Under the pieces are notes generated by a model that saw nothing but the letters and a program-made list of their open reading frames with translations, had not been told where the DNA came from and made no database searches. Both the position numbers and the translations under genes were made by a program. From contig JBBFLE010000012.1 of assembly GCA_037481695.1 (NCBI GenBank), positions 1 through 64,000 of the forward strand: a DNA stretch of 64,000 nt. Direction: 5' to 3'. This document shows positions 18,529 through 31,017 of the stretch, one piece after another (positions within the stretch are counted from its first letter, which is position 1; every line of letters starts with the position of its first letter). Source of the stretch: a bacterium. Lineage in GTDB: Bacteria > Desulfobacterota > Desulfocorpusculales > Desulfocorpusculum.

Positions 18529-19656
18529 TTACCCCAGGGCCATCTGCACTTCTTTTCGAACAGTTTCCGAGGGGTCTCCCAGGGCCCTCTCCAGGGCTCT
18601 TCTGGCCGAGGCACTGCCCATGCGGCCCAGCGCCCATGCGCACATGGCCCTGACGTTTTCAAAGGGGCTCTCCTTTAGTTTTCTTGCCAACAGAGGAATA
18701 TCCCTTGTATCTCGTACGTTACCCAAGGCCCTCGCCGCATTCATCTGCCACCTGTCTGGCCGGGATCTTGAGATATAGAAGAACTGGGGCCACAGCTTTT
18801 CCTGATAATAGTCGAGGTTCATATCAAGGATCAGGCGAAGGTCCCATCCCTGGCCCCTTTCCATCAGGTCCTGATTCAATGCAAGGGGCCTTTTGGCCCA
18901 GGCCTTATTTATGGGGCAGGCTTCCTGGCACAGATCACAACCGTAAATCCAGGTCCCCATAGGTTCTCTAAATTCAATGGGAGTAAGCTGCGGTCCGTAA
19001 TATGTCAAAAAAGCAATGCATTTTTGGGGCTCCATTCTAAGAGGTTCGTAAAGGGCTCCTGTGGGGCAGGCCTTGAGACACTCCATCTTACAGTTCTGGG
19101 GGCAGCCCAAGACCATGCTGGGTTCATCGGGTTGCAGCTCCACATCCACCAACAATGGGATTATCTCCAGCCAAGAGCACCTGCCCATGGAGTTACGGGC
19201 AAAGGCAAAACAGTTGTTTCCATACTGGGTTATGCCTGCCCTGGCAGCAGCCATGCGGGCTGGGAGCTCTTCGTCGTAAAGGCAGTGAATTCCAAGTCCT
19301 TTGAGGAAGTCCAACAGGGACTTGAATCGCAAGTACTCTTCCCCCCTTATCTTTCTCTCGTCCACCATGTAACATCTGCCATAGACGTGCAGCAGATGCT
19401 CTGGGAAGCTTTTCCTGTGATAGTTACGGATCAGAACCACGATGGATCTGGCCCAAGGGTGTTTGGATGCAGGCCTGGATCCCCTCAGGGTGCTGAAGGA
19501 ATCTGTTTGGACCCAATGGTACATGGCAGGCCTGCGTTGGATCTCCTCCACATACAGGTGGAATGGGGCTACATCTGTGAAGCCAACATCCTCAAAACCC
19601 AAACTCAAGGCCTGCTCTCTTATGATTCTCTTTAATGCTTGACTCATGAGGGCCAC
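18529..19656 (-). CDS. QueG-like double [4Fe-4S] reductase with HEAT repeats
   Basis: A 375-residue protein related to epoxyqueuosine reductase and reductive-dehalogenase-like enzymes. The cobalamin-domain counterpart is at residues 50-190, where AAARAGITQYGNNCF aligns with the RAGxGxxGKN loop of QueG. Two ferredoxin-type motifs follow: NCKMECLKACPTGAL and YGCDLCQEACPINKAW. C-terminal HEAT-like repeats (AARALGNVRDTRDIPLLARKLKES, CAWALGRMGSASARRALERALGD) match QueG architecture. The N-terminal domain departs from canonical QueG (GNN for GKN and a different strand order), so tRNA epoxyqueuosine may not be the substrate. Divergent from the DUF166 selenoprotein gene. Confidence 0.78.
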   Translation of the reverse strand: MALMSQALKRIIREQALSLGFEDVGFTDVAPFHLYVEEIQRRPAMYHWVQTDSFSTLRGSRPASKHPWARSIVVLIRNYHRKSFPEHLLHVYGRCYMVDERKIRGEEYLRFKSLLDFLKGLGIHCLYDEELPARMAAARAGITQYGNNCFAFARNSMGRCSWLEIIPLLVDVELQPDEPSMVLGCPQNCKMECLKACPTGALYEPLRMEPQKCIAFLTYYGPQLTPIEFREPMGTWIYGCDLCQEACPINKAWAKRPLALNQDLMERGQGWDLRLILDMNLDYYQEKLWPQFFYISRSRPDRWQMNAARALGNVRDTRDIPLLARKLKESPFENVRAMCAWALGRMGSASARRALERALGDPSETVRKEVQMALG

Positions 19657-19856
19657 CTCCCAGGTTCATGCCAGAGTATGATGGGATTTCAAGTGTGTGT
19701 GAAGGCCTTTTGGAGCCCTTTCATCACTGGTTGCATCTTGTTGACATTATAATCCTTTTGCTCATCAAGGCGCTTCTCCAGAGGCTCTTATTGATTCCCC
19801 TTTATCCAAAGGCTATTCTACAGGGTGTAACCCCTAGATCAATGGAGAGCTATAAG

Positions 19857-20528
19857 ATGCAGGAGATTTGGGTCTTCCAGCAAAGGGGAAGTGGCATGGC
19901 CAAGATTCGTGCCATATCGGCCAGGGGCAAGGGTATGCGCATAGGCAGGATCCTTTCTGTGGATGAGGCTTTACCTGCCGTGCTAGAGGAGCCAGGCAAA
20001 TACCTTCCCCAGGAGATCCATGCTGATCTGGTCCTGGATTTTCTTCGTCACCCAGACCTGTCCCTGGAGCTGGCCTTGAGGTGCAGGGAGCTTAGTATTC
20101 CTGTGGTGGCTTCGGGCAAGAAGTTGAGGGTGGAGGGCACCATCACGCCGCCTACCTGATGCGGGCTTGCCAGGCAGGTCTGCCTGGGCCCTTACGGGGA
20201 ACAGTTCGGGGCCCCGGAGCTGGAGGTGGAGCTGGAAGGCACTGTGGTGCGTGGTGTGCGAGTCAGAAGAGGAGCCCCCTGCGGAGCCACCTGGGAGGCT
20301 TCTGAGCGCATCTTGGGGCTGGAAGCAAAAGAGGCCCTTTCCAGAATCGGGCTAGAGACTCAGTTCCAGTGCATTGCAGATCCCTCGGGCTGGGATCCCC
20401 TTTGGGGCAAGAGTCCGGTCCATTTTGCGGCGGATGTTCACACGGCAGCCCTGGAAAGAGCCCTCTCTGGACTCAGAAACCGTAATCCCCTGTGCGGATG
20501 TCATTCAGAATCCCGTTTTCGAACCTAA
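19857..20528 (+). CDS. DUF166-family selenoprotein (Sec at residue 101)
   Basis: The frame from ATG 19857 (GGAG nine bases upstream) meets TGA at 20157-20159 and continues without another stop to TAA at 20526-20528, 223 residues in all. Both sides belong to one DUF166 protein: ADLVLDFLRHPDLSLELALRC and ITPPT before the TGA, then CGLARQV, FGAPELEVELEG and RVRRGAPCGATWEASERILG after it. At this place relatives have a Cys-Cys pair, as I recall them, so TGA replaces the first Cys. A SECIS-type hairpin follows directly. The role of DUF166, sometimes labelled thymidylate-synthase-related, is not established. The end overlaps the convergent DUF2845 gene by 56 bases. Confidence 0.85.
20163..20191 (+). 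promoter_or_regulatory. Bacterial SECIS hairpin for the DUF166 Sec codon
   Basis: Sixteen bases after the TGA, CCAGGC (20170-20175) and GCCTGG (20182-20187) form a perfect 6-bp stem capped by AGGTCT; GGGC (20163-20166) and GCCC (20188-20191) extend it below a 3-base bulge. As I recall it, the apical loop matches that of the E. coli fdhF SECIS, which binds SelB. Confidence 0.85.
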
Positions 20529-20835
20529 GATAATACATGAGGCTGTGGGGGCCAAAGTTGTAAGTCCACTCCTCTATGAGAACCTGCTGTACGGCCCAAG
20601 GTTTGATATAGCGTTTTTCTCCGGGATCGTAAAGAAAGAGGCGTCCTTCTGGAATACCCAGGCGTTCTTCATATCTCTGTTCTACAAAGCTGGGCGCTCC
20701 ACACTTGGCCGTCACCTCATATCGAGTCTCCCCCAAAGACACTATCCTTCCCTGGCATCTCAGGGCCGAGGCCTCAATGGGTGCCCAGGTTGACAATAGG
20801 GCCATAAGAGAAAAGGCTATTTTGCATATGTTCAT
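20473..20835 (-). CDS. DUF2845 secreted protein
   Basis: A small exported protein starting at ATG 20835 (MNICKIAFSLMALLSTWAPIEASA is a signal peptide; an alternative start lies 15 bases upstream). The mature part LRCQGRIVSLGETRYEVTAKCGAPSFVEQR, with two cysteines, and EWTYNFGPHSLMYYLRFENGILNDIRTGDYG are typical of DUF2845, a periplasmic family of unknown function common in deltaproteobacteria and pseudomonads. It converges with and overlaps the end of the selenoprotein gene. Confidence 0.85.
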   Translation of the reverse strand: MNICKIAFSLMALLSTWAPIEASALRCQGRIVSLGETRYEVTAKCGAPSFVEQRYEERLGIPEGRLFLYDPGEKRYIKPWAVQQVLIEEWTYNFGPHSLMYYLRFENGILNDIRTGDYGF

Positions 20836-21259
20836 GTGCCACTTCCCCAATGGTTGTCTCCAGGCTCAACTTACAGAACTGGCAGGATATAGTCAAGATT
20901 CTTGGTCTGCGTTTTTTGATTAATGAACTGTGGTGCGTGGCTCCACTATGTCCTGGTATGGATGGATTCAGGTCCCAAGGAAACTGGAATCTGCCCATGG
21001 GGGCCTATTGGGTCCAGGACTCCAAATGAGCAAAGCCACCGGGTGGGCCTTTGGCCCTCAACCTCACTGGTCCTGTAGAATGATCCGGGTCAGATGTCTT
21101 GTTGCTTGACATCTGTGATGCCATTTCCTATTATTCGCCTGTCTCTGGCAAGGCACAGGGCAGCCAGGCCGCAGGTTGGACTCTCAGCAAAATGGAACCC
21201 CAAAGTGTTTCTGCTTCATGGGGCATACTCTTGGAAGCCTAAAGGAAAGGAGGATTGCC
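20836..21259. other. Intergenic region with one hairpin
   Basis: About 420 bp with no supported gene between the divergent DUF2845 and TAXI receptor genes. CAGATGTC (21091-21098) and GACATCTG (21108-21115) form an 8-bp stem with a 9-base loop and no following T run, so it is more likely an operator or mRNA hairpin than a terminator. No convincing -35/-10 pair was found. Confidence 0.5.
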
Positions 21260-29366: not shown

Positions 29367-30824
29367 CTATCCTTTCACGACCCCCAGTGGCCTGAGCCTT
29401 ACCACCTTTCGACTGATTCCAGCCCCATGAACCACATTGACCACGTCGTTCACATCCTTGTAGGCCTCGGGTATTTCTTCCACCAGAGTCGCCTTGCTGG
29501 CCCCACGTACTATTATGCCTTTGGACTCCAGCTCCCTGGAGATGGCCCTGCCTTTGGAGGCCTTGATGGCTTGGTGACGGCTCATCAACCTGCCAGCTCC
29601 GTGGCAGGTGGAGCCGAAGGTCTCTTCATAAGCTTTTTGTGTGCCGGCCAGCACGTAAGAACAGCGACCCATGTCTCCTGGGATCAAGACCGGCTGTCCC
29701 ACCTCCCTGTAGTCCTCTGGGATATCGGAATGCCCGGGGGGGAATGCCCTGGTGGCCCCTTTTCTGTGGACGCACAGTCTGAGTTTCTTACCCTCTAGCT
29801 CGTGCTCTTCCAGCTTGGCTATGTTGTGGCATACATCGTATACCAGCTCCAGGCCCAGTTGTCTGGGCCCAAGGCCGAATACCTGTTCAAAGGTCTCCCT
29901 CACCCAGTGGCTTATCATCTGGCGATTCACAAAGGCAAAATTAGCAGCTGCGGCCATGGCGGCCAGATAGTCCCTGCCCTCGGGGGATTGCACAGGAGCA
30001 CAACAAAGCTGGGGATCTGGCAACTCTATGCCGTGATCCCTGGAGGCCTTCATCATGATCTTTATATAATCGTCGCAGACCTGATGTCCTAGCCCCCTGG
30101 AGCCCGTGTGCACCAGCACGGTGGCCATGTCTTTTTCCAGGCCGAAAGCACGGGCAGCCTCCTGGTCAAAGATCTCCTCAACATAACCCACCTCCACAAA
30201 GTGGTTCCCCGAGCCCACTGTGCCCAGCTGGGACTTGCCCCTTTCCATGGCCCTGTCGCTAACTAGTGCGGCGTCAGCCCCGGGTATGCAACCCCCGGCT
30301 TCCATGTGTTCCATGTCCGATGCCGATCCAAAGCCCCTTTGAACAGCCCATTTGACTCCCATCTCCAGCACGCGGGCCAGCTCCTGGGGCCCCAACTTAA
30401 GATCCTTTCTCTGAGATCCCACTCCTGATGGGATGTTCCTGAAAAGAGCATCCACCAATGGGTGAATCATCTTTTGCACTTCCTCGCGGCTCAGACCTGA
30501 GCGCATGAGCCGGACCCCTCAGTTGATGTCGTATCCCACACCCCCTGGGGAGACAATCCCCGAATCAACCCTGAAGGCTGCAACTCCCCCTATGGCAAAG
30601 CCGTAACCCCAGTGAATGTCTGGCATGGCCAGGGAGCGGCCCACTATTCCAGGCAGGCAAGCCACGTTGGCAACCTGCACCAGGCTCTGGTCCTTCCTTA
30701 TGACCTGCATCATCTCCTCATCTGCATAAACGAGCCCTTCTGTGAGCATCCGACCCTCTCGGGGGATGATCCACCTCCAATCATCCAGCTTCTGAAGCTT
30801 GATCTGGGTTTGCTGGCTTTTCAT
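29367..30824 (-). CDS. rtcB: RNA ligase RtcB with selenocysteine at the catalytic cysteine (Sec102)
   Basis: RtcB joins RNA 2',3'-cyclic phosphate to 5'-OH ends using GTP and Mn2+. The frame from ATG 30824 (GAGGAGG upstream) meets TGA at 30519-30521 and continues in frame to 29367, 485 residues in all, the normal RtcB length. The TGA falls in [20 protein letters not shown], where ordinary RtcB has the metal-binding catalytic Cys (DINCGVR). Other active-site parts are intact: [36 protein letters not shown] and [10 protein letters not shown], with the guanylylated His. A SECIS-type hairpin follows the TGA. The gene lies downstream of archease on the same strand, 193 bp apart. Translation without Sec would end after 101 residues. 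Confidence 0.92.
30486..30512 (-). promoter_or_regulatory. Bacterial SECIS hairpin for the rtcB Sec codon
   Basis: On the minus strand GCTC (30502-30499) and GAGC (30492-30489) close an AGGTCT loop 20 bases after the TGA, extended by a GC pair pair below a one-base bulge. An alternative 7-bp pairing, CGGCTCA with TGAGCCG, uses the same 3' arm. The loop is identical to that of the DUF166 hairpin. Confidence 0.8.
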
Positions 30825-31017
30825 GAGACACCTCCTCTTTACTGCCCACCTCTGGCAAAAAGAGCTTGATGGCGGTAAGAACCCGAGCCCCGTCTCCAGG
30901 GCCAATAACCAGTTTTGGACCAGGAGCATCTCATGGAAGCGCCTGCCGGGGGGGGTCTTGGGGGCGTAGACCCCGACTCACAGCCCCTGGTCCATGATTG
31001 GGGCTATGGACTCAATG

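Follow-up and report, generated by a model that had tools for sequence, protein, structure and literature searches.

Predicted selenocysteine beside a putative metal or sulphur-transfer site in DfsP, a DUF166-family protein of the Desulfobacterota

The window analysed here, positions 1 to 64,000 of contig JBBFLE010000012.1 (assembly GCA_037481695.1) from a bacterium of the genus Desulfocorpusculum, carries on its forward strand a gene, dfsP, whose reading frame is open on either side of an in-frame TGA codon. The features of this locus, in window coordinates, are as follows.

19844-19849, + strand: Shine-Dalgarno-like GGAGAG, read directly from the sequence, a few bases 5' of the ATG at 19857
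19857-20528, + strand: dfsP coding sequence, 223 residues with the TGA taken as selenocysteine (Sec); stop codon TAA at 20526-20528
19860-20135, + strand: N-terminal domain, residues 2-93, Rossmann-like on weak signals only
20136-20468, + strand: C-terminal domain, residues 94-204, predicted IscU/SufU-like fold
20157-20159, + strand: TGA, predicted Sec101; Sec or Cys in 63 of 63 DfsP orthologues
20160-20162, + strand: Cys102, invariant in all DUF166 proteins sampled, distant ones included
20163-20191, + strand: predicted bSECIS hairpin, upper stem CCAGGCA/TGCCTGG (20170-20176 with 20181-20187), lower stem GGGC/GCCC, loop GGTC
20280-20282, + strand: Cys142, in an APCGAT motif; invariant, and aligned by profile comparison with the second cluster-ligand Cys of IscU
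20370-20372, + strand: Cys172, invariant in all DUF166 proteins sampled
20421-20423, + strand: His189, invariant in all DUF166 proteins sampled

A preliminary description of this DNA had proposed that one DUF166 protein is encoded across the TGA, and the profile matches bear this out. The product exceeds the gathering score of PF02593 (DUF166; 3.7e-36, 125.2 bits against 24.4) and the cut-off of NCBIfam NF041372 (3.4e-90, 301.2 bits against 200), and both matches cross the TGA, the second over the full length of the family, with residues 2-203 aligned to positions 1-202 of a 203-position profile. In family, length and domain it agrees with the DfsP proteins of NF041372, as it does in having Sec or Cys immediately before an invariant Cys; it differs in nothing of substance, having only a tail of about 20 residues past the profile, ending NPLCGCHSESRFRT. 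This end of the tail lies where the 3' end of dfsP overlaps, by 56 bases and on the opposite strand, a gene for a DUF2845 protein (window 20473-20850, - strand). The gene is present in a single copy in the 4.1-Mb genome. Its divergent neighbour (window 18529-19656, - strand) encodes a QueG-like protein with 4Fe-4S and HEAT domains which, at 132 bits against a cut-off of 200, is probably a relative of QueG and not QueG itself. Across 72 dfsP loci no partner gene is conserved between lineages; glutaminyl-tRNA synthetase, MreB, 2-oxoacid:ferredoxin oxidoreductase, iron alcohol dehydrogenase and CBS proteins, all named by sequence, recur only within lineages.

DfsP is already catalogued, NF041372 being entitled 'DUF166 family (seleno)protein DfsP', and two reviews list a DUF166 selenoprotein, one of which, from 2026, gives NF041372 and credits the protein to Zhang & Gladyshev 2007. 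With the family so listed, the present copy changes little on the question of whether DfsP is a selenoprotein. The 2007 study reportedly dealt with an Olavius algarvensis symbiont.

Is the codon at 20157-20159 nevertheless a true stop? TGA is a stop codon in bacteria, and dfsP might then be a gene in mutational decay, or a pair of short genes. A search of 395 genomes of the phylum gave 57 with a match above the DfsP cut-off, and with four named loci added and duplicates removed there remained 63 distinct domain sequences. At the column in question 25 of these have TGA and 38 a Cys codon, with no other residue found there, so that the in-frame TGA of a conserved coding sequence stands, as had been suggested, in the place of a conserved cysteine. 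The TGA forms come from many families of the phylum, many of the matches have a single in-frame TGA, and no TGA copy has a further stop within the domain; the additional stops in relatives that would speak for decay are thus missing. On the tree Sec and Cys must have replaced one another at least five times, and the direction of these changes is not given by it. One genome (G131) encodes DfsP in the Cys form as well as in the Sec form (L080 and L096), which makes a natural comparison.

The hairpin that follows the TGA fits all the constraints of the published bSECIS model, namely a loop of 3-9 nt, an upper stem of 4-16 bp, a distance of 16-37 nt from the UGA, a G in the first two loop positions and a minimum free energy of at most -7.5 kcal/mol (PMC13188914). 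The hairpin segment has a minimum free energy of -15.5 kcal/mol, and its apical loop AGGUCU (20176-20181) starts exactly 16 nt past the TGA when the closing A-U pair is taken as part of the loop; it can equally be described as a 7-bp stem with a GGTC loop at 17 nt, or as 6 bp with AGGTCT at 16 nt. In loop and spacing it is close to the SECIS of Escherichia coli fdhF, which has the apical loop AGGUCU at a spacing of about 17 nt. The window holds 2061 TGA trinucleotides when both strands are counted, and just two of them, that of dfsP being one, are followed at SECIS distance by a GGTC-type loop on a stem of 6 bp or more. The preliminary description had called this a strong hairpin 16 bases downstream; the position stands, but the folding energy of the 74-nt region is ordinary for so G+C-rich a stretch (z = 0.10), and single-sequence folding sometimes favours another hairpin. 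Folding energy taken alone lends the true stop some weight, and the case for the hairpin is accordingly one of comparison.

That comparison separates the two kinds of orthologue. TGA genes usually have a GG-loop hairpin 16-18 nt downstream, which is mostly missing after a Cys codon, and a strong stem with a GG-loop (stem score at least 8) occurs in 18 of the 25 TGA genes, compared with 3 of the 38 Cys genes. On this strict test the seven remaining Sec genes fall short, with a 4-bp stem in four and none in three. Across the 14 TGA genes with a common register, both sides have changed at three of the six stem pairs, as in locus L025, where AGA...TGT replaces the AGG...TGC of the window as a synonymous, compensatory pair; stem covariation is 0.207, compared with 0.078 for shuffled sequences, and 92.9% of cells are paired in register, compared with at most 69% when the register is slid. 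One Cys-type dfsP (L020) still has, beyond its TGC codon, a 10-bp stem with a GGT loop, possibly left over from a SECIS since lost.

The same loop recurs elsewhere in the window, as the preliminary description had noticed. The gene for the RNA ligase RtcB (window 29370-30929, - strand) has an in-frame TGA at 30521-30519, within GVGYDIN-U-GVRL, and 20 nt beyond it lies AGGTCT, in a short stem. We take this TGA to occupy the place of the conserved metal-binding cysteine of RtcB (Cys98 of Pyrococcus horikoshii). One TGA, counted at any column, is likewise present in 17 of 97 genomes with a close rtcB match, and a literature search by title found no description of natural RtcB selenoproteins.

The genome encodes the full Sec machinery: selA, selB, selD and tRNA-Sec, the last confirmed by ARAGORN. 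The selD gene (L213, G000:C3:67670-68590) itself contains one in-frame TGA, so that selenophosphate synthetase is probably a selenoprotein here. Another tRNA gene, a tRNA-Cys(GCA) of 94 nt by ARAGORN (L004, G000:C16:63349-63441), scores 50 bits with the tRNA-Sec model, which suggests a long variable arm. The selB gene scores above the cut-off in all Sec genomes tested and in 60 of the 61 genomes with DfsP, Cys forms included; loss of the Sec machinery therefore does not explain most Cys forms. Since selB is found in 353 of the 395 genomes across the phylum, its co-occurrence with DfsP says little.

The one-column TGA/Cys pattern, the covarying hairpin and the full Sec machinery together make it very likely, from sequence comparison, that Sec is inserted at the UGA of dfsP. 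A true stop is highly improbable: it would have to account for 25 distinct sequences, spread over many families, in which one column holds a TGA and there is no other stop, for a hairpin that covaries, for a genome equipped to insert Sec and for a family curated as Sec/Cys.

What, then, might the Sec residue do? The preliminary description placed it in a Cys-Cys motif suggestive of redox or metal chemistry. Sec101 does adjoin Cys102 in all Sec-type DfsP proteins, but the two positions do not form one unit, only the second being invariant across the DUF166 proteins sampled. More distant PF02593 members from the same phylum (L084 and L088, for example), which score about 70 bits, far under the DfsP cut-off, have Phe or Leu in place of Sec/Cys101, yet have Cys102, Cys142, Cys172 and His189 in common with DfsP. 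By this alignment Sec/Cys101 is specific to the DfsP branch, and Sec is an addition beside an older site.

These residues bear on a simpler explanation, in which Sec101 and Cys102 are a plain thiol/selenol redox pair, joined in a vicinal selenenylsulphide and free of metal or cluster, with structural roles for Cys142, Cys172 and His189. The adjacency of the two residues suits such a pair, as does the view, stated in PMC9312934, that selenoproteins mostly take part in redox reactions. The other four residues, however, are invariant even where position 101 is Phe or Leu, which implies that the Sec-Cys pair is not the core of DUF166, and a thioredoxin-like fold is absent from the Foldseek matches of both models described below. 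We regard the redox pair as unlikely. The suggestion of redox or metal chemistry stays an inference with which the four invariant residues are compatible.

Structural prediction suggests an IscU-like fold. IscU-type scaffold proteins are the platform for iron-sulphur cluster assembly, and IscU has a ligand set of three Cys and one His. The order of motifs in DUF166 had pointed to IscU and TSCPD domains, a suggestion that predates the Foldseek result. AlphaFold models, built on 4-5 sequences, have a mean pLDDT of 58 for the whole protein and of 69, with a pTM of 0.66, for the C-terminal part from residue 94. With the whole-protein model IscU/SufU structures occupy Foldseek ranks 1-20 (best E 0.018, probability 0.82-0.99), and with the isolated C-terminal domain ranks 1-31 (best E 0.046, TM at best about 0.5); neither model has a match reaching E 0.001, and a search against viral structures gave nothing. 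In hhalign the C-terminal profile matches NifU_N with P 1.8e-4 (probability 48%), compared with a best value of 3.2e-3 from 13 families unrelated to it, used as controls, and only 0.11 for the N-terminal half; the printed control row ctl2 is a DUF166 fragment, thus a positive, and was left out of the 13. Cys142 falls on the second cluster-ligand Cys of IscU, and a longer, less certain profile alignment sets Cys172 opposite the Cys of the IscU HCS motif. The TSCPD domain was rejected as a relative (hhalign probability 0.3%). A small protein encoded elsewhere in the genome (L182, G000:C5:119256-119591) matches the NifU_N and TSCPD models alike.

The C-terminal half might alternatively have a separate fold, peculiar to DUF166 and containing a structural metal site, the likeness to IscU being an artefact of thin alignments. 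The models are of low confidence, with no E < 0.001, and sequence searches agree with such a reading: none of 40 DUF166 members matches Pfam NifU_N (PF01592) at E up to 10, and PDB sequence searches returned nothing for the full-length profile, hence no solved relative by sequence, and for the C-terminal profile just repeat proteins and chance-looking matches, with no IscU. Two models, the profile comparison and the motif order nevertheless concur, and a separate fold seems to us distinctly unlikely. On the strength of the models the C-terminal half probably has an IscU-like fold, while the evidence that the N-terminal half is Rossmann-like is weak. DfsP would share with the N-terminal domain of IscU, SufU and NifU (PF01592) the predicted topology, the position of Cys142 and a set of three Cys and one His, and differ from it in ligand spacing, in a fused N-terminal domain, in Sec, and in the CGD motif with the first ligand Cys of IscU, which is missing, FGxP being found at the aligned place. 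Since no DUF166 member matches Pfam NifU_N, we say that DUF166 is predicted to fold like IscU, not that it is a member of that family.

The mechanism that we favour is as follows. Ribosomes would decode the UGA at 20157-20159 as Sec by means of SelB and the in-frame bSECIS 16 nt downstream, giving a protein whose N-terminal domain is Rossmann-like and whose C-terminal domain is IscU/SufU-like. Cys102, Cys142, Cys172 and His189 would form a metal or sulphur site resembling the three-Cys-plus-one-His set of IscU, and the DfsP branch would add to it, just before Cys102, a Sec or Cys that serves either as an extra ligand or as a reactive selenol; in the latter case Sec101 could reduce, or transfer, sulphur or selenium at that site. 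We give this account as a whole a probability of about 0.5. The putative metal or sulphur-transfer site with Sec101 alongside, judged from residue conservation and the models, is itself an evenly balanced proposition. More tentative, and rather less probable, is the broader possibility that the IscU/SufU scaffolds include DUF166 as a branch so far unrecognised and joined to a Rossmann-like domain, in which DfsP has an encoded selenol beside a cluster or sulphur-transfer ligand and handles sulphur or selenium.

In our literature search no paper dealt with what DUF166 does or how it folds, and as far as that literature shows the proposal of a fold and a site is new. It is this functional part that is useful, offering four invariant candidate ligands, a branch-specific Sec and the hypothesis of an IscU-like fold for a family without a known role. 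If true, it would link selenocysteine to iron-sulphur or sulphur-transfer chemistry in the Desulfobacterota.
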